Source: an uncultured Nitrospira sp. (GTDB taxonomy: Bacteria; Nitrospirota; Nitrospiria; Nitrospirales; Nitrospiraceae). Taken from it: a DNA stretch of 55,537 bases. Positions 41,598-50,842 of the stretch are shown here, one piece after another; the first letter of the stretch is position 1; the number at the start of each line of letters is the position of its first letter. The stretch is taken from assembly GCA_902500755.1 (NCBI GenBank), contig CABVRV010000015.1, forward strand, positions 1 through 55,537, given 5' to 3'. The notes under the pieces are model-generated. The model saw only the letters and a list, made by a program, of their open reading frames with translations. It ran no database searches and was not told the DNA's origin. The translations under genes and the position numbers were made by a program.

Positions 41598-41645
41598 AGA
41601 TGGTGGGCGATACAGGTATCGAACCTGTGGCCTCTTCCGTGTGAA
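41598..41645 (-). repeat. left attachment site repeat (tRNA-Val 3' fragment)
   Basis: 48 bases identical to 49334-49381; starts in AGATGGTGGGCGATACAGG. It carries the acceptor 3' strand, T-arm and part of the anticodon arm of tRNA-Val but no 5' half, so it cannot make a tRNA. It marks the left chromosome-island junction. Confidence 0.93.
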
Positions 41646-42083
41646 TGTAAAAAGATAGGTTTTCCAAATGGCTCGCTGTTGCTATGGTTTCCCCTTTTAT
41701 CTGAGCAATTGCGCGGAGTTCGGAGCGTTCTATTTATTCTACTGAGTTCACTGCTTTGGGTGATTTCTGATCGGTTCTGGCACAAAAGTAGCCACAGTAC
41801 AAGTACGTATATTTGCAAGCGCGGAGAAGGTTCCTGACTCCAGGTACGGAGAGAAACGGCGTTTACATTGATTCCGACAGTGCTAACTAAATGGGAAGCA
41901 AAGCCGTGTCTAAATTTGGCTGCGACTTCACCACTTGTCTACGCGACGTTGAAGGACCGGCCGTTTACAAGTCACTGGAGGAGATTTAGAGGCTGCTCGC
42001 TGAGCCGTAACATGGGCACAACCGCACGGTCATTGCCCTACCGACTGGCCGAGAGGTTCTTGACGGATATCTGATTGTCTGAC
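41646..42083. other. left end of the island, no confident gene
   Basis: About 440 bases. A 68-codon plus-strand frame at 41868-42074 ends exactly before the next gene but has no recognisable motif. TTGACG near 42059 lies too close to the next start codon to serve as a typical promoter. The segment probably contains the cassette promoter and attachment-site arms, but I cannot define them. Confidence 0.4.
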
Positions 42084-42800
42084 ATGAATACAACAACCAT
42101 GATCGTGACTCACTATTCCACTCGGCCGGACGGTCTCTCACTTCGTAGGACAAAGATTGGCCCCGAGCAAGAACTCGTCGATTGGTTTCTTAACGAAGGA
42201 TGTCTTTCCGTTCGCCCTGGTGAGCGCTTGACCATCTTTCTCGAACCTAAATTACCATCCGGGTTCCCTGATATTGTCGCAGTCACTTGGCGAGAGCGTG
42301 TTACGGCAAAATGGAGAATTGCTAGGGCCAATCTGGAACCAAGTGATCTACGCTTGATGCATTTTTTGGTTACAGTCGGACATCCCTGCGAGGATTCATA
42401 TCTCCGCAGCATCTTCCAGCGAAGTGTTAAGCGGAGCCTTGAAAAGCTAATCAATGCCGGAATGGTGCGATACGTTTCTTCATGCTGGTATCCGGAATCC
42501 TTGACCAGATCGTTCGCCTTGACGAGGATCATAGCCGTGGAAGCAAAAATAGGTGCGTGGCGCGCTGCTCTCGATCAAGCGTATCGCAACACCTGGTTCG
42601 CCCCAGAATCTTATATTCTCGTCCCAACAATCAGGTCCAATTCTGTATTACTCGCTGAAGCATCCAACCGAGGAATTGGGGTCCTGAGCCGAGATAATAT
42701 GCATTGGAACTTGAATTCCCGTCTGACCGTTTTCCCCCGCTCATACGTGTCTTGGCTTTTCAACGAGTGGGTATGGCGAGTTTCCCATCTTGAGCAATGA
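42084..42800 (+). CDS. PD-(D/E)XK-type nuclease with inserted winged-helix region
   Basis: A 238-residue protein. The catalytic pattern of PD-(D/E)XK nucleases can be read: Pro-Asp in SGFPDIVAV (P62-D63), then Glu-x-Lys in IIAVEAKIGAW (E153, K155), followed by a Gln (Q165) in AALDQAYRN. Between the two halves, residues about 85-135 resemble a winged helix (DLRLMHFLVTVGH, then RSLEKLINAGMVRYV), suggesting DNA recognition inserted in the nuclease fold. Family members cut or nick DNA. The stop overlaps the kinase start by 4 nt (ATGA). ATG 42084 is preferred; an ATG at 42099 is also possible. First gene of the three-gene cassette. Confidence 0.72.
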   Translation: MNTTTMIVTHYSTRPDGLSLRRTKIGPEQELVDWFLNEGCLSVRPGERLTIFLEPKLPSGFPDIVAVTWRERVTAKWRIARANLEPSDLRLMHFLVTVGHPCEDSYLRSIFQRSVKRSLEKLINAGMVRYVSSCWYPESLTRSFALTRIIAVEAKIGAWRAALDQAYRNTWFAPESYILVPTIRSNSVLLAEASNRGIGVLSRDNMHWNLNSRLTVFPRSYVSWLFNEWVWRVSHLEQ

Positions 42801-43648
42801 CCATAGATCCCGAGTGGTTGCGATCAACGTTTCCAGATCTTTCGGACTTTCAGCCGCTGGTGCAAGGCGGTCAGAAGTTTGTCGTGGCCGCGAAACATCC
42901 ACAAGATGGGCAAGTCGTCATCAAGATTGTCCACCCTCAGACTGATGCTGAAACCTTCCGGCGCGAAATCCTTGCTGTACAAGCGGTGAATTCGTCTCGG
43001 GTTCCTCGTATAGCTGAGGTCGGACAGGCGACAACGCATTTAGGCGTGTGCTTTTGGTTGAGGGAGGAAAGGATCGCGGGGCAAACGCTGAGGCAAGTGC
43101 TTCAAGCTGGTCCTTTAGCAGCAAAGGAAGTTATCCGGCTCGGCCTGCAGCTCATGGAGGCATTGGAGCTTGCGGAGAACGCTCATATCGTCCATCGAGA
43201 TGTGAAGCCAGATAATATCATTATCGACAGCTCAGGCGATTTCTGGCTTCTAGACTTCGGCATAGCACGACATCTGAAGCTTGACTCCGTCACCGCTACC
43301 TCTTCACCATTTGGCAAGATGACGTTGGGGTATGCTCCTCCCGAACAGTGTCGTAATCTCAAGGGTGATATCGATTCGCGTGCCGATCTATTCGCTCTGG
43401 GTGTGACGATGTACGAATGTGCCACTGGGAAGAATCCGTTCCTGAACCCACCACCTCGCGATCAAATGGAGATACTGAAGCGAATAGAACGCGATGTTTT
43501 GCCGCCATTGCTACTTCCCATCAGAGAGAAGCACAGTTTCGGAGACTTAGTCTGTGCGATGACACAAAAAGACCGTGTTCACCGACCTCGGAATATTGCG
43601 CTCGCGCTTGACTGGTTACGCGACATCGCAAAGCACGAATCAATCTGA
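42797..43648 (+). CDS. serine/threonine protein kinase (Hanks type)
   Basis: A 283-residue soluble protein kinase made of the catalytic domain alone. Visible subdomains: a degenerate glycine loop (VQGGQKFVV), the ATP lysine in VVIKIVHP (K43), the catalytic loop HRDVKPDNI (H133-R134-D135, K137, N140), DFG (153-155), the activation segment with TLGYAPPEQC and a Ser/Thr-rich stretch before it (TATSSPFGK), and DSRADLFALGVTMYE. All catalytic residues are present. No transmembrane segment or PASTA domain, unlike PknB-type kinases. Translationally coupled to the nuclease and 18 bases upstream of the 401-residue protein, which are the plausible substrates or partners. Confidence 0.9.
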   Translation: MTIDPEWLRSTFPDLSDFQPLVQGGQKFVVAAKHPQDGQVVIKIVHPQTDAETFRREILAVQAVNSSRVPRIAEVGQATTHLGVCFWLREERIAGQTLRQVLQAGPLAAKEVIRLGLQLMEALELAENAHIVHRDVKPDNIIIDSSGDFWLLDFGIARHLKLDSVTATSSPFGKMTLGYAPPEQCRNLKGDIDSRADLFALGVTMYECATGKNPFLNPPPRDQMEILKRIERDVLPPLLLPIREKHSFGDLVCAMTQKDRVHRPRNIALALDWLRDIAKHESI

Positions 43649-43666
43649 CAACCGATAGGGGATCCG

Positions 43667-44872
43667 ATGGAGCTTTTTCTTCAGTTTGGATACGGGATGA
43701 TGGAGCATTGCAGGCACCTCATTAAATCATGGGGATCCGGGACAGTGATCCTCAGTCCTCGCGATCTCGATGCTGACCAACTCAAGCGGTTTGGCAATGA
43801 CATCGTCTCTCTTCCAGGTGGGCGATGCCTCTTGGATCCCCAATTCTACCTGCCGCATGCAGACCATGAGAAACTCTGCGAGCATCAGTTTTGGCCAAAG
43901 GATTACAGAACTGATACTTTTTTGTCGGATGGAGGACTGCCAAGACTGCTCAACCACCTGAAACAACTCAATGTAGAGATCGGCTGTGCGGAAGTCATTT
44001 TGCCTGGCCTGTTCGCTGAAAAAGTTGACGACGATTGGTTGAAGATTCAAACCAAGATTGTTGAAGAATCTTCTCGCGTAGAATTCGGCAAACCACTGGT
44101 TTCAACGATCGCGTTGAGTTCTGAATCAGTCCGGGACGAGAAGCAAATTTCAGCGCTGCTCGAATGGGCTGAATCAAATTCTTTAAAGGCATACTATGTT
44201 GTTTGCGAGCATCCGGATGGACAGTATCTTGTAGAAGACCCCATTTGGGTGGCAAATGTCCTGGATCTTTGCGCTGGCCTAAAACTCCTGGGCGCTCGCG
44301 TTATGCTTGGGTACTGCACTCACCAGATGCTGATTGCGAGCGTAGCAAAGGTAACCGCCATTTGCTCGGGCACGTGGATGAATGTACGCTCTTTCCCACC
44401 AGAGAAGTTTACGGTGGATTACGATGAGGACATTAGAACAAGAGCGTTATGGTACTACGCGCCTCAAGCTCTGTCAGAGTACAAACTGCAATATCTCGAC
44501 ATTGCCAAGCGTCAGGGTATTCTTGATCTGTTGGCGCCATCTCACGAAGTGGACGGAGGTTACGTTGGCAATCTGTTTTCCGGTGCACAACCAAGTTCTG
44601 TCGGATTTAATGAACAACCGGCCTTTCGGCATTACCTCCACGCGTTACGCAAGCAAGTAGAGCATCTTCCGCTAGATGGACTTGACAACACGGTCTCGGG
44701 GTATGAGAGTACCTTGAATGATGCAGAGGATCGCCTGACTAGGCTTCACCGGGTCGGCATTAAAGGTCAGAACCGAGACTTTAAGGACATAATTGACGCA
44801 CAGCGAGCGGCCATCGGTCTGTTTTTGTCTCTCCGAGGACCAATGCTACGTCGGGTGTGGCGTTCGCTGTAG
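43667..44872 (+). CDS. unknown 401-residue protein, possible alpha/beta barrel, third gene of the cassette
   Basis: I do not recognise this family. The sequence alternates beta strands and helices (GTVILSPRDLD, EVILPGLFAEK, VSTIALSSES, AYYVVCEHPDG, GARVMLGYCTHQMLIAS, KVTAICSGTWMNVRSF), which suggests a TIM-barrel-like fold, followed by a helical C-terminal part (about 320-401). Candidate active-site stretches are LDPQFYLPH and YCTHQ. No signal peptide or membrane segment. It begins 18 bases after the kinase stop with GGGGAT as ribosome-binding site. It may be the target of the kinase, an enzyme or a sensor; the cassette context is the only clue. Confidence 0.6.
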   Translation: MELFLQFGYGMMEHCRHLIKSWGSGTVILSPRDLDADQLKRFGNDIVSLPGGRCLLDPQFYLPHADHEKLCEHQFWPKDYRTDTFLSDGGLPRLLNHLKQLNVEIGCAEVILPGLFAEKVDDDWLKIQTKIVEESSRVEFGKPLVSTIALSSESVRDEKQISALLEWAESNSLKAYYVVCEHPDGQYLVEDPIWVANVLDLCAGLKLLGARVMLGYCTHQMLIASVAKVTAICSGTWMNVRSFPPEKFTVDYDEDIRTRALWYYAPQALSEYKLQYLDIAKRQGILDLLAPSHEVDGGYVGNLFSGAQPSSVGFNEQPAFRHYLHALRKQVEHLPLDGLDNTVSGYESTLNDAEDRLTRLHRVGIKGQNRDFKDIIDAQRAAIGLFLSLRGPMLRRVWRSL

Positions 44873-46117: not shown

Positions 46118-46435
46118 TCATAGTTCAAGCACGAAGCGAAGAGCGTCTTTGACCTTAGCCATCGTGGCAGCGGACAGCTGCCCCAGTTTGCGTTCGAGCC
46201 TGGGTTCGATCAAAGACCCAATCCCTTGGACGTTGACCACAGATATTTGGTGCAGAAAGGGAAGGTCGCCGAGCTGGATTTCGTACCGGCTACCCCGATA
46301 TTGCGTGGTCAGCGGGAGGTATGTGAGGAGCGCGCGGGGAGCGTCAGGATCGAAACGAGACATGATGAGAACGGGGCGGGTCTTGGCTGCCAACCCCAAA
46401 TCGGCCAGCCAGATGTCACCCGGCTTGGCGTTCAT
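46118..46435 (-). CDS. mazF: MazF/PemK-type mRNA interferase toxin
   Basis: A 105-residue toxin of the MazF/PemK/CcdB fold, whose members cut mRNA at short sequences. The family opening KPGDIWLADLG, the strand RPVLIMS, and SVVNVQGIGSLIEPRLERKLGQL are recognisable. The start overlaps the antitoxin by 20 nt, the usual coupled arrangement with the antitoxin first. Such modules stabilise islands or act in abortive infection; which applies here is not known. MazF function has not been shown by sequence alone for the weak catalytic positions. Confidence 0.82.
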   Translation of the reverse strand: MNAKPGDIWLADLGLAAKTRPVLIMSRFDPDAPRALLTYLPLTTQYRGSRYEIQLGDLPFLHQISVVNVQGIGSLIEPRLERKLGQLSAATMAKVKDALRFVLEL

Positions 46436-46601
46436 CGAGGGTATCGAGCACTTCTTGCACGACGGCTCGCGAAGGCTGCAGATCCAGGGTATCGGTGTCG
46501 GCCAGTTCGATCACGTCGGTGACGATTTGCTCCACTTGAGCCGCCACCTCCGGTCGCCAGGAGGCGAGCTTTTTGTCGAGTTTCTGGGCGAGCTGTGTCA
46601 T
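46416..46601 (-). CDS. antitoxin of the MazF-type module
   Basis: A 61-residue protein ending in DTLDERQAG, located directly before and overlapping the toxin. It is rich in acidic and Gln residues (AAQVEQIVTDVIELADTDTLD), consistent with an antitoxin that wraps the toxin, but it lacks a clear DNA-binding domain in this form. The in-frame upstream extension to 46856 is not antitoxin-like; the ATG at 46601 is chosen by family fit and size, although the ribosome-binding site is poor. Confidence 0.65.
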   Translation of the reverse strand: MTQLAQKLDKKLASWRPEVAAQVEQIVTDVIELADTDTLDLQPSRAVVQEVLDTLDERQAG

Positions 46602-46992
46602 GCGGTGACGGTACCACGTTTCACCCTCCCCCGCAAGATTTCCGGCTTCTGACATCGGGCCCGAGACTCGGCAGGGATTACAGGTCCTCAAACAGTTACC
46701 GTACTTCTCTCCTGCCGAATGATTTTTTTCAGACCATTCTCGAAATTCCTCCTTGTTCATCCCCGTACAGACGCACTGGATCAGCGCAAAGCCATGCCAG
46801 GAAAGGCTCTTCAGCGTTTGACAGAGCATTCTATGAGTCGTCTCCCTACGAACCAAGTGACCACTCCTGACCTCTAGAGGACCTCTCCTGTCCCTTCCTG
46901 CCTAATTTCCTTTCATCGCTCAGTCCGCTACGCTCGCCCCTGGCGGCACACAGGTTTTGTTGTTCCATACATCCTAGTTACGGAGGAGGAAC

Positions 46993-47283
46993 ATGAAGAG
47001 GACATCTCACGATCATCGTGTTTCCGTTCGAGAATTGGCTGCACTCTTGCGGGTCAGCACCGATACCATTCGACGAGCCTACCGGAGAGGCGACCTCCCG
47101 GCGATCCGCGTGAAGACCGCGCTCCGGTTCGACCTGGAGGAAGTCCGTCGCCTGATGCAACGCCAGGTGGAGGCCTACTGGAGCGCCCGGCGATGCGCCG
47201 CGAGCGGCGCACGCCGACCGCCTATCAAGGCACAGCCCCCGCTTAGTCAAACGGGGGCGCTATTTCCAGGCACTAAACCATGA
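46993..47283 (+). CDS. excisionase-like helix-turn-helix protein
   Basis: A 96-residue protein with a strong GGAGGAGG before the ATG. Residues about 8-50 form a MerR/excisionase-type helix-turn-helix (SVRELAALLRVSTDTIRRAYRRGDLPAIRV, then RFDLEEVRRLM), the same pattern used by recombination directionality factors. A basic, proline-rich tail follows. It overlaps the zinc-ribbon gene by 4 nt. It may control excision or expression of the island. Confidence 0.78.
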   Translation: MKRTSHDHRVSVRELAALLRVSTDTIRRAYRRGDLPAIRVKTALRFDLEEVRRLMQRQVEAYWSARRCAASGARRPPIKAQPPLSQTGALFPGTKP

Positions 47284-47958: not shown

Positions 47959-48273
47959 ATGCTATTGACAATCAAAGACCTGTCACGCTGGCTCAACATC
48001 AAACCCTCAACGCTCTACCTCTGGGCTGCTCAAGGTAGGATTCCCAGTCAAAGGATTCATGGCTTGGTCCGGTTCGAGCGCGTGAAAGTGACGAAATGGT
48101 TGGAATCGTTTGAGCGTAACTCACTGCAATCAATCCCGCGCGCGTCACGGGTGAGCCACCACGATCTGGATCGCATCATTGAAGCGACCAAGCGAGACGC
48201 CTATACTCCGCCCCCGGGGAAACCATCGACAGCGAGCCCAAAGGGAAGGGAGGTAGACCGTGGGGCTCGTTAA
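47959..48273 (+). CDS. AlpA/excisionase-like helix-turn-helix protein
   Basis: A 104-residue DNA-binding protein. Residues about 5-50 are an excisionase-type helix-turn-helix (LTIKDLSRWLNIKPSTLYLWAAQGRIP, then HGLVRFERVKVTKWL). The rest is basic and probably disordered. It overlaps the integrase by 14 nt and so is translationally coupled, which strongly suggests a directionality factor or regulator of the integrase. ATG 47959 has a poor ribosome-binding site and lies just after a GC-rich hairpin. Confidence 0.82.
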   Translation: MLLTIKDLSRWLNIKPSTLYLWAAQGRIPSQRIHGLVRFERVKVTKWLESFERNSLQSIPRASRVSHHDLDRIIEATKRDAYTPPPGKPSTASPKGREVDRGAR

Positions 48274-49380
48274 ACGAGGGAATGTCTGGTGGATGAATTT
48301 AATTTTTGAGGGTCAGCGGATACGCCGGTCCACAGGGACGGCGAATCGGGCCTTGGCTGACTCCATCATGGCCAAGGTCAAGGTTCAGCTGATCGAGGGA
48401 CAGTATTTTGATCGCCTCGAAGAAAGGACTCGAACGTTCGACGAAATGATGGATCGTTTCGAACGGGAGCATCTCGTGAAGTTGGCAAGCCAGCAGGTAT
48501 GTCAGGTCTTCGTAAAGCGCTTCCGTTCGTTCTTCGGAGGTCGGACCTTGGCAGAGATCACACCCCGACTGATCGTGGACTATAAGAGCACACGCTACGC
48601 GGCTGGGGTGCAAGCCGCCTCGATCAATCGAGAGCTCAGCTGTTTGAGAAAGGCCTTCAACCTCGCCAAGCGGGAGTGGGAGTGGTGCCGTGAGAATCCT
48701 GTGAGCCGCGTGTCCCTCGAAAAGGGCGCGAACAAGCGGGATCGCTGGTTGACAGAAGACGAGGAGGCGCGATTGCTCACCGCCTGTCCGTCGTGGTTGC
48801 GGGACCTCGTGGTGTTCGCGCTGCATACCGGGATGCGGTTGGGTGAAATCCTCTCGCTGACGTGGAGTGCAGTGGATCTGTTCCGGAGAACGGTCACGGT
48901 CTTTCGATCCAAGAATGGAGAAAGGCGCACGGTGCCGTGAATCAGACCGCGATGACGCTCCTTACGGAGAAGGCCAAGGTGCGCCACCTAAAAACAAGTC
49001 TCGTGTTTCCAAGTCAGGCTGACACACGTCTCGATCCCAACCATCTGCGACGGGCCTTGCGGCCTGCCATGGCGAAGGCTGGGATCGTGGACTGTCATTT
49101 CCATGACCTCCGGCACACCTTCGCGACGAGGCTGGTGCAATCAGGGATCGATCTGTACAAGGTGCAGCGATTGCTCGGGCACGAGTCTCCGATCATGACG
49201 CAACGATATGCCCATCACTACCCGGAGAGCTTACGGGATGGGGTGGAGATCTTGGATCGCCAGAAGCGCTGTGACACAAAATCGACCACAGTGCGGAGGA
49301 TCTCGGAGAGCGTCGTCGCGGAAGTGCTTGAAAAGATGGTGGGCGATACAGGTATCGAACCTGTGGCCTCTTCCGTGTGA
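48260..49380 (+). pseudogene. tyrosine integrase, disrupted by a frameshift
   Basis: Phage-type integrase that should insert and excise the island at tRNA-Val. Frame 1 (48260-48940) gives 226 residues: N-terminal arm-binding domain, core-binding domain, and the first catalytic residue Arg in HTGMRLGE (R193); it stops at TGA at 48938-48940 right after KNGERRTVP. Frame 2 then continues from the same point (NQTAMTLLTEKAK) to 49380 with the remaining catalytic residues: His-x-x-Arg in FHDLRHTFAT, His in LLGHES and Tyr in QRYAHHY. Addition of one base between 48937 and 48938 restores one open frame (..RTVPLNQTAM..). The 3' end lies in the right attachment repeat, so the last residues are encoded by tRNA sequence. 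Confidence 0.88.
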
Positions 49381-49381
49381 A
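49334..49381 (-). repeat. right attachment site repeat (within tRNA-Val)
   Basis: 48-bp identical copy of 41598-41645. It includes the 3' part of the tRNA-Val gene and the last codons of the integrase. The element therefore supplies the 3' end of the tRNA, keeping it intact. Confidence 0.93.
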
Positions 49382-49411
49382 GGAAGCGCTCTACCACTGA
49401 GCTAATCGCCC
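49337..49411 (-). tRNA. tRNA-Val (anticodon CAC), CCA encoded
   Basis: Class I tRNA on the minus strand: acceptor GGGCGAT pairs with ATCGCCC, D-arm GCTCAGTGGTAGAGC, anticodon arm CTTCC-TTCACAC-GGAAG (anticodon CAC), T-arm CAGGTTCGATACCTG, discriminator A and encoded CCA. It reads the valine codon GUG. This is the integration target of the island. Confidence 0.96.
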
Positions 49412-49525: not shown

Positions 49526-50842
49526 ATGAGAGATGACGTGGTCATCATCGGCGGGGGTCTGGCTGGGTCGGAAGCGGCTTGGCAAGCGGCGAATCGCGGC
49601 GCCAAGGTCACGCTCTATGAGATGCGCCCGAAGGAGATGACGAAGGCGCACAAGACCGGCGGGTTGGCGGAACTCGTCTGCTCGAACTCACTGGGGTCTC
49701 TCGATCCGCTGAATGCGCCCGGCATTTTGAAAGAGGAGATGCGGCGGCTCAACTCGCTGATCATCGCTTCTGCCGAGCAGGCTCGCGTGCCGGCCGGGTC
49801 GGCGCTGGCCGTTGATCGTGACCAGTTCTCCCAACACATTACCCGCGCACTGGAAGGCCACCACAACATCAGAATTCTCCACGAAGAAATTGCGGGTATC
49901 CCGACAGATTGCCTCTGCATCATCGCCACGGGGCCATTGACGTCGGACAAACTGTCACAGGCCATTCGTGCCGCGACGCAATCCCAACACCTGTATTTCT
50001 TCGACGCGATCTCGCCGATCGTCGATGCGGACTCGATCAACATGGACATCGTCTTTCGCGCCTCGCGCTACGACAAGGGCGGGGATGATTATTTAAATTG
50101 CCCCATGACGGCAGAGCAGTACAATGCGTTCTACGACGCCATGATGGCTGCGGAAAAAGTCCAGCCGAAGGAATTTGAGAAGACGCCTTATTTTGAGGCC
50201 TGTGTGCCGATTGAGGTGCTCGCTGAGCGCGGCCGCCAGACCATGCAGTTCGGTCCGATGAAACCAGTGGGCCTCAAAGATCCTAGAACAGGGATGGAGC
50301 CAGCAGCAGTCGTACAATTGCGAACGGAAAATATCCATAGGACCTGCTACAACGTGGTGGGCTTTCAAACCAAACTCACCTATCCGGAGCAGAAGCGGGT
50401 GTTTCGCATGATCCCGGGCCTCGAACAGGCCGAGTTCCTCAGGTATGGAAGCTTGCACCGCAACACGTTCATCAATTCTCCTCAGCTCTTGTTGAACACG
50501 CTACAATTCAGAGCTCGGGGCACTCTCTTCTTCGCTGGGCAACTAGTCGGCGTGGAAGGCTACACCGAATCAGCTGCCATGGGAGGTCTGGCCGGTATCA
50601 ATGCGGCTCGGGCCCTGGCCGGCGAACCATTGATCACACCACCCCCTACGACGGCACACGGCTGCTTGATTGCGCATGTTACTGCCTCGGATCCGCGTCA
50701 CTTCCAACCAATGAACACCAATTTTGGTCTGTTCCCGCCCTTGGCAACTCCTCCACGGGATAAGGACAAGAAGCGGCGTTCATTGAGCCAACGAGCTCTT
50801 GAGGATTTCGACGTATGGACGAAGCGATCAAAACTTTCGTAA
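49526..50842 (+). CDS. trmFO: methylenetetrahydrofolate-tRNA (uracil-5-)-methyltransferase
   Basis: TrmFO makes 5-methyluridine at position 54 of tRNA (the T of the T-loop) using methylene-THF and FAD. The 438-residue protein has the FAD-binding GGGLAGSEAAWQAA at its start, the catalytic-cysteine region ELVCSNSLGS (C52), a second cysteine in PYFEACVPIEVLAERG, the tRNA-binding and NAD(P)H-like region, and the family block PMTAEQYNAF. It overlaps xerC by 28 nt. First gene of trmFO-xerC-hslV-hslU, an order also found in other bacterial phyla. Confidence 0.97.
   Translation: MRDDVVIIGGGLAGSEAAWQAANRGAKVTLYEMRPKEMTKAHKTGGLAELVCSNSLGSLDPLNAPGILKEEMRRLNSLIIASAEQARVPAGSALAVDRDQFSQHITRALEGHHNIRILHEEIAGIPTDCLCIIATGPLTSDKLSQAIRAATQSQHLYFFDAISPIVDADSINMDIVFRASRYDKGGDDYLNCPMTAEQYNAFYDAMMAAEKVQPKEFEKTPYFEACVPIEVLAERGRQTMQFGPMKPVGLKDPRTGMEPAAVVQLRTENIHRTCYNVVGFQTKLTYPEQKRVFRMIPGLEQAEFLRYGSLHRNTFINSPQLLLNTLQFRARGTLFFAGQLVGVEGYTESAAMGGLAGINAARALAGEPLITPPPTTAHGCLIAHVTASDPRHFQPMNTNFGLFPPLATPPRDKDKKRRSLSQRALEDFDVWTKRSKLS

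Follow-up and report, generated by a model that had tools for sequence, protein, structure and literature searches.

A conserved nuclease, kinase and TIM-barrel gene trio on a tRNA-integrated island of an uncultured Nitrospira: a probable immune module

PD-T4-6 and Stk2 are kinase systems that consist of a single gene, and sensor domains fuse to defence kinases. tRNA-guanine transglycosylases (TGTs) bind nucleobases. The accessible text of a 2026 survey of bacteriophage exclusion (BREX) systems reports that BREX loci can carry PD-(D/E)XK nucleases as stand-alone genes, and that Dpd and the BREX-related BRC systems contain TGTs (PMC12839542); the accessible part of a second paper describes KKP, a kinase-kinase-phosphatase toxin-antitoxin defence (PMC11341870). 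Here we describe three adjacent genes in a 55,537-nucleotide stretch (the window; positions 1 to 55,537 of contig CABVRV010000015.1) of the 3.8-Mb draft genome of an uncultured Nitrospira sp. (GCA_902500755.1). They encode a putative PD-(D/E)XK-type nuclease (gene 1), a Hanks-type Ser/Thr protein kinase (gene 2) and a protein of unnamed family (gene 3, hereafter C). The nuclease, the kinase and C almost certainly form one three-part unit and, because the genes travel together widely and often among virus-defence genes, the trio is very probably an immune module, directed against phages or mobile elements.

Within the window, the three plus-strand genes are packed as the original prediction had claimed, with the start of gene 2 overlapping the stop of gene 1 as ATGA, and gene 3 following after an 18-nt gap. 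Read from its ATG, gene 1 gives 238 residues; in the list of open reading frames (ORFs) it starts at an in-frame TTG at 42075. Cohesion of the genes elsewhere had been set beforehand as the refutation test, and the genes do stay together. Searches were started from C alone, with neither the kinase nor the nuclease as a query, so the partners found beside it are an independent result. Leaving out eight solo relatives described below, C was found at 69 distinct places (window included) in bacteria, haloarchaea and IMG/VR contigs, making up 62 clusters at 90% identity with a median pairwise identity of 21%. The kinase lies beside C in 67 of these places and the nuclease also in 67, the two places without a nuclease (L051 and L052) having C at a contig end or nearly so. 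Among the first 48 places, the kinase is directly beside C on the same strand in every case (48/48), and the nuclease is present in all but those two. A later draw fetched 30 places as new, of which L143 was the same contig as L023 (100% identical) and was counted once. The other 29 include 21 with a nuclease, 19 of them also with a recognisable kinase, and eight with neither. By record titles, the trio occurs in Nitrospirales, Acidobacteria, Planctomycetes, Bacteroidia, Flavobacteriia, Proteobacteria, haloarchaea and IMG/VR contigs. Chance ORFs are ruled out, as all three genes are kept across the 62 clusters.

Gene order varies around this unit. The nuclease comes first in 51/69 places, last on the same strand in six (L041, L050, L133, L134, L142 and L156), and convergent in ten (L040, L048, L136, L137, L138, L139, L141, L145, L157 and L158). 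The C-lobe of the kinase is fused to C in L142, and in L090/L156 the kinase and C are one 670-aa protein, whose end is overlapped by the nuclease gene. This fusion is strong evidence that the kinase and C act together. No fused form was found in 21 genomes of the phylum, a list without the genome of origin and hence uninformative.

Matches to the C profile were obtained in 4/396 genomes of the window's phylum and 8/292 of the haloarchaeal class, with 11/294 in the planctomycete phylum sample, 14/297 in the acidobacterial phylum sample and 1/289 in the alphaproteobacterial class sample, the last being the seed itself. Searching the proteins of 296 genomes from the window's phylum gave two distant relatives (23-24%), in genomes of another family, and a genome-contig scan gave at least 39 loci (39 of 104 pattern matches confirmed, a lower bound). 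Five IMG/VR contigs carry C, three at 56-60% and two more, found with an alignment query, at 39-40%. C is also present on one Natribaculum (haloarchaeal) and one Polaromonas plasmid; a plasmid search with the L003 form of C gave no match, and the INPHARED phage records hold no relative of the window C.

The catalytic residues of both enzymes are kept, and both therefore look selected for activity. Gene 2 matches the Pkinase profile (PF00069, E 6.1e-29, 101.7 bits against a cut-off of 31.7) and has the catalytic K, E, HRD, N and DFG of a Hanks-type Ser/Thr kinase, with K43, E57, H133, R134, D135, K137, N140, D153 and G155 kept in 66/66 scorable copies. Its best PADLOC match is the PD-T4-6 model (E 1.5e-42), and it also matches MAD6 models (PADLOC E 3.2e-39; NCBIfam 101.8 bits, cut-off 460). 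One locus (L045:4624-6108) has a second, larger defence-type kinase, mad6/PD-T4-6-like, upstream of the trio.

For the nuclease, the active-site set is E28, D63, E153, K155 and Q165. E153 and K155 are kept in 66/66 copies with letters there, Q165 in 65/66, and E28 and D63 in 66/67, the exception being the L022 ORF, which begins in another frame. The residues singled out by the original prediction (D63, E153 and K155 here, D135 in the kinase) were thus correctly placed and are conserved in the relatives. The AlphaFold model (pLDDT 89.5) predicts a helix at 27-38, a strand, a strand from 64, an insert, a strand with E153-x-K155 and a helix, which places the E...D...E-x-K set on an alpha-beta core, as in PD-(D/E)XK enzymes. 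A winged-helix insert had also been proposed; profile positions ~71-141 match Lrp/AsnC and MarR regulators (best E 5.8e-6), and residues 79-137 are modelled as helices and strands, which fits. Nucleases of the convergent class leave no room for a winged helix (8/10 such nucleases aligned), so the insert is accessory. Up to E 1, gene 1 of the window matches no family in Pfam (2025), NCBIfam (2026) or PADLOC (2023). PDB sequence searches gave one chance match with the window nuclease alone, and no chain with a profile of eight nucleases free of the winged helix-turn-helix (wHTH).

Enrichment of the trio in defence islands had been put forward as a check, and the trio indeed adjoins or sits inside restriction, BREX and AbiE loci, unlike control genes. 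It lies inside a BREX operon, between a methyltransferase and a helicase-PglZ pair and at the same position in each case, in L024 (Deltaproteobacteria), L037 and L132 (planctomycetes, separately drawn, 94% alike in C; the C gene of L037 is broken into two ORFs). Type I restriction genes adjoin the trio in L023 and L047 (by similarity also L145 and L137), type IIG enzymes in L051 and L052 (by similarity also L046), and AbiE in L015 (by similarity also L016). For a broader comparison we used 124 flanking proteins, hand-picked from 192 before annotation and mostly the nearest (the 1671-aa protein of L031 was left out). The controls were 114 of 120 proteins from 19 other stretches of trio-bearing genomes; the six left out came from L083, a stretch near a BREX-embedded trio. 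With an E limit of 1e-10, the flanking proteins match 359 PADLOC families (25 of them listed) against four for the controls, tallies that count families and not genes, one methyltransferase matching dozens of families. Of the four control families, three are RtcR models and one is a glycogen-branching model, the latter matched by 3 proteins. At gene level (n=124), Pfam assigns N6_Mtase to 5 flanking proteins, Eco57I to 4, N6_N4_Mtase to 3, PglZ, AbiEii and HSDR_N to 2 each, and integrases to 5; all of these are missing among the 25 of 151 control families listed.

The trio is also mobile. L042 and L043, from two genera, share 98.7% identity over 3333 nt, and L027 and L028, both labelled Methylotenera, share 94.3% over 3320 nt; both segments comprise the trio and little else. 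As identity between genomes is nearly limited to the trio, it moves as a cassette. Among the IMG/VR contigs, the trio of L009 follows a gene with a tail tape-measure match (E 3.3e-8), L011 is a 91% relative of L009, and L010 has repressor and endolysin matches; in L012 and L013, no structural phage hallmark was found in the two genes tested in each. Separately, L031-L034 (named Flagellimonas, Cytophaga, Maribacter and Euzebyella) carry one element of ~14 kb with the trio. L031 is 93.5-93.7% identical in DNA to L032-L034, L033 equals L034 over 17 kb, and C is identical in all four. The 1671-aa protein beside the trio in this element reads like a methyltransferase-helicase fusion.

Structure prediction and a fold search had been recommended for the 401-residue C protein, and these returned a TIM barrel whose TM-scores are highest to TGTs, a loose match. 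The AlphaFold model (pLDDT 92.5, pTM 0.92) consists of the barrel and a helical tail. Foldseek against the PDB gave 60 matches at E up to 0.001, and among the best 50 of the 60, TGT entries have the highest TM-scores (TMq 0.46-0.51, rmsd 7-9 Å), other barrels reach 0.31-0.39, the DNA-modifying TGT DpdA only 0.37, and the two best E-values belong to homocitrate synthase chains. In the alignment of C, D57 is kept in 67/67 and P113 in 69/69 proteins, and 61 to 66 of 67 or 68 keep Q6, G8, S30, P31, Q59, Y61, G235 and N239. The conserved polar residues (D57-P58-Q59, S30-P31 and N239) are placed by the model at the ends of barrel strands. As the original prediction had said, no family could be named for C: only chance-level entries of Pfam and NCBIfam match the window protein (E 0.13 and 0.068, well short of the cut-offs), and PADLOC has no family for it. 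Of 36 C proteins searched in the same way, single members matched four Pfam families (E 0.045-0.095), and a type I specificity match (E 0.012) was the sole PADLOC result up to E 1. Neither C nor a divergent set of C proteins gave anything useful in sequence searches of the PDB.

These features bear on a reading in which the trio is a modification-restriction system, where C would be a TGT-like base exchanger acting on host DNA (or tRNA), the nuclease would cut DNA that is unmarked or foreign-marked, and the kinase would tune the pair. The TM-scores, the conserved residues at the strand ends and the TGTs of Dpd and BRC systems speak for it, as does a TGT-type zinc pattern, CxCxxC...H, located behind the barrel in L142 and L156 (both with fused kinase parts) and in three of the eight solo relatives. 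This pattern, noticed first and counted afterwards, arose in 7/8000 shuffles of four pattern-bearing proteins. It is absent from 67/69 trio C proteins and 5/8 solo relatives, and where present its spacing to H differs from that in the three genuine TGTs compared. A comparison of the C profile with the profile of those TGTs gave hhalign probabilities of 0.5% and 0.8% and no alignment, and neither the window protein nor the 36 members match PF01702. The large rmsd, the low DpdA score and the homocitrate synthase matches point the same way as the missing cysteines, and such a pair needs no kinase. We therefore consider modification-restriction unlikely. The profile comparison rules out C as a genuine TGT, leaving a loose fold relation, and a genuine TGT is encoded elsewhere in the window's genome. 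It is likely, though not proven, that C is a far relative of the TGT superfamily, the main branch of which has lost the zinc site.

The mechanism we favour, with about even confidence, is one in which C acts as sensor, the kinase as switch and the nuclease as effector. C is read as the sensor because fusion to the kinase involves C, and the nuclease as the effector because its position and strand vary and it carries a DNA-binding insert; that the whole trio is small and mobile also suggests this division. C would be a sensor or ligand-binding subunit, its TGT-like barrel presenting a conserved polar pocket. It would sit on the kinase, to which one lineage has it fused, much as a sensor part does in other defence kinases. 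Upon infection, the kinase would be released by C and would then phosphorylate the wHTH-bearing PD-(D/E)XK nuclease (alternatively, a host target), which would free the nuclease to cut DNA of the invader or of the cell itself. By analogy with TGTs, C may bind a nucleobase. A tentative and rather doubtful extension is that a TGT-derived barrel, having given up its zinc site and its work as a transglycosylase, recognises a nucleobase-type signal, such as a modified base or a nucleotide from phage DNA metabolism, and arms a wHTH-guided nuclease through a kinase to which it is sometimes fused. If so, immunity in bacteria and archaea would link nucleobase sensing with protein phosphorylation, in a widespread undescribed system.

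Several observations weigh against this mechanism or against a defence role. A catalytic role is just as conceivable for the conserved pocket of C, and the probable PD-(D/E)XK fold of gene 1 is drawn from its motif and predicted topology. L139 has a nuclease and C, with no kinase found. Of large flanking proteins scanned singly, hand-chosen for size and closeness, five of one set of ten have no PADLOC match, and one of another ten has no match. Eight remote Acidobacteriota relatives of C (L148-L155; E 5e-16 to 7e-5) have neither kinase nor nuclease. By eye, the neighbours of L150 and L154 are thiolase, acyl-CoA synthetase or hydroxyacyl-CoA dehydrogenase, cupin and TonB receptor genes, and since these look like fatty-acid genes, the C fold would not be specific to defence. 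When five solo relatives were combined with the two fused forms, the resulting profile aligned to C across 347 columns (hhalign 99.4%). L148-L155 look like a solo metabolic branch, an unnamed barrel of probably metabolic role from which the ligand of C might be learned. The sequence shows that the trio is one conserved unit, that its active sites are conserved, that it is mobile and that it lies among defence genes; protection of the cell, sensing by C, action of the kinase on the nuclease and the target cut are inferred.

A toxin-antitoxin or abortive module based on phosphorylation would account for part of the same evidence. Here, a toxic nuclease or kinase would be held in check by C, together with a phosphoesterase in haloarchaea, until a phage product breaks the check, as in KKP (PMC11341870, as far as its accessible text goes). 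Besides this precedent, a phosphoesterase-like gene (~230 aa) directly follows C in 6/8 haloarchaeal loci (L039, L044, L046, L127, L128 and L129), as a gene for a kinase antagonist would, which speaks for the favoured mechanism too; its product is a possible fourth component. The transmission of the trio as one small cassette fits as well, and so do the neighbouring AbiE (L015 and L016) and, in the window, PemK/MazF genes. Against it, the library searches gave no toxin family for either enzyme and the phosphoesterase was found in six loci only, and we give this explanation a low probability. That the trio is instead a selfish or regulatory stress cassette merely accumulating in islands with defence genes is very improbable: a mobile-element setting by itself brings defence genes near and the solo relatives of C look metabolic, but three genomes, from two phyla, have the trio within a BREX operon, the four PADLOC families of the control genes are all of housekeeping type, and the trio is present on IMG/VR contigs.

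In the window, the three genes are cargo of a 7.7 kb island, both edges of which are a perfect 48-bp direct repeat that is part of tRNA-Val (Table 1). The tRNA-Val gene (49337-49411, minus strand) holds the second repeat copy almost entirely, so the tRNA-integrated island that had been proposed is present. G+C is 0.50-0.51 in the trio and higher on both sides of the island, at 0.53-0.55 on the left and 0.55-0.60 on the right. The rest of the cargo is also as described before, namely a toxin, a deoxyribosyltransferase-like protein and integration genes, to which we add that the integrase is split, by a recent break or a draft error. The deoxyribosyltransferase/TIR-like gene is convergent with the trio and is perhaps a second defence gene of the island. 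In several relatives of the genus (e.g. G050, G200 and G289), tRNA-Val and the following gene (window 49526-50842) lie ~3 to 4 kb apart, a spacing which suggests that tRNA-Val is a recurrent integration site.

Table 1. Features of the island in the window (HTH, helix-turn-helix)
Feature	Position	Strand	Evidence
attL-like 48-bp repeat copy, island left edge	41598..41645	+	pair 100% identical, 7736 nt apart
Gene 1, PD-(D/E)XK-type nuclease with winged-helix insert (putative), 238 aa	42084..42800	+	ORF, conservation, wHTH profiles, AlphaFold
Gene 2, Hanks-type Ser/Thr protein kinase, 283 aa, no extra domain	42797..43648	+	Pkinase PF00069, PADLOC PD-T4-6 model
Gene 3, C protein, 401 aa, TIM barrel and C-terminal helices, unnamed family	43667..44872	+	AlphaFold, Foldseek
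Deoxyribosyltransferase/TIR-like protein, 353 aa	44952-46013	-	PADLOC TIR effector model E 3.4e-7; Nuc_deoxyrib_tr E 0.0057, below cut-off
PemK/MazF-like toxin and preceding possible antitoxin ORF	46118-46435 and 46416-46856	-	toxin E 1.3e-12; antitoxin ORF without family match
Excisionase-like HTH protein	46993..47283	+	HTH_17 E 1.8e-9; TIGR01764 excise 31.9 bits, cut-off 28.8
Excisionase-like HTH protein	47959..48273	+	HTH_17 E 5.8e-10; TIGR01764 31 bits, cut-off 28.8
Tyrosine integrase, two overlapping frames (48260-48940 and 48862-49380)	48260..49380	+	Phage_integrase E 7.1e-12 (piece one); tyrosine-recombinase models, best E 1.6e-17 (piece two)
attR-like 48-bp repeat copy, overlaps tRNA-Val	49334..49381	+	perfect repeat pair

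Membership of the described systems was considered in turn. PADLOC, Pfam and NCBIfam searches rule out a known defence family for genes 1 and 3, in line with the original prediction, which knew of no named system with exactly these three parts. BREX membership of the window trio is ruled out, with no PglZ or PglX match in the ten island ORFs scanned, and the 36 C proteins match no Dpd model of PADLOC. MADS membership is likewise ruled out, the resemblance being limited to a kinase and an HTH protein below NCBIfam cut-offs (101.8 against 460; 24 and 35.3 against 80). No description of the trio was found in searches of an open-access library, including the accessible parts of PMC12839542, PMC13373217, PMC10853773 and PMC13092281; supplements, most preprints and subscription papers were beyond reach, and a listing elsewhere is possible.

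Among the closest described arrangements is one in the accessible text of PMC12839542, a system that, like the trio, combines a PD-(D/E)XK-type nuclease with a Hanks-type kinase, has wHTH and sensor parts and lies in defence loci. In that system, however, a NERD nuclease and tandem kinases are joined in a single large protein, whereas the trio consists of three small proteins, among them a nuclease without a family match and a TGT-like barrel. PD-T4-6 and Stk2 share the Hanks-type kinase but are single genes, whereas the trio kinase, 283 aa long and with no further domain, keeps two constant partners; among the loci found with C, it lies with C in 67/69. Dpd and the TGT-carrying BRC systems place a TGT-fold protein in a defence locus (PMC12839542), as the trio may do, but C has no profile relation to TGTs and lacks the zinc cysteines in 67/69 trio members. 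KKP, as its accessible text describes it, is another small phosphorylation-based prophage module, to which the haloarchaeal loci of the trio come nearer by adding a phosphoesterase, but it has two kinases and a phosphatase, with no nuclease and no barrel (PMC11341870). MADS resembles the trio in its kinase, which the MAD6 models match, and differs in that genes 1 and 3 match no PADLOC model.

If the trio defends, then a system has been missed by the annotation libraries searched (genes 1 and 3 of the window having no match) despite its wide taxon span, and a transglycosylase-like fold would enter kinase signalling. It would also offer a small three-gene unit in which control of a nuclease by phosphorylation can be tested directly. 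With two protein families for which no model was found, the trio is rated as a form of the known 'kinase-linked nuclease defence'.

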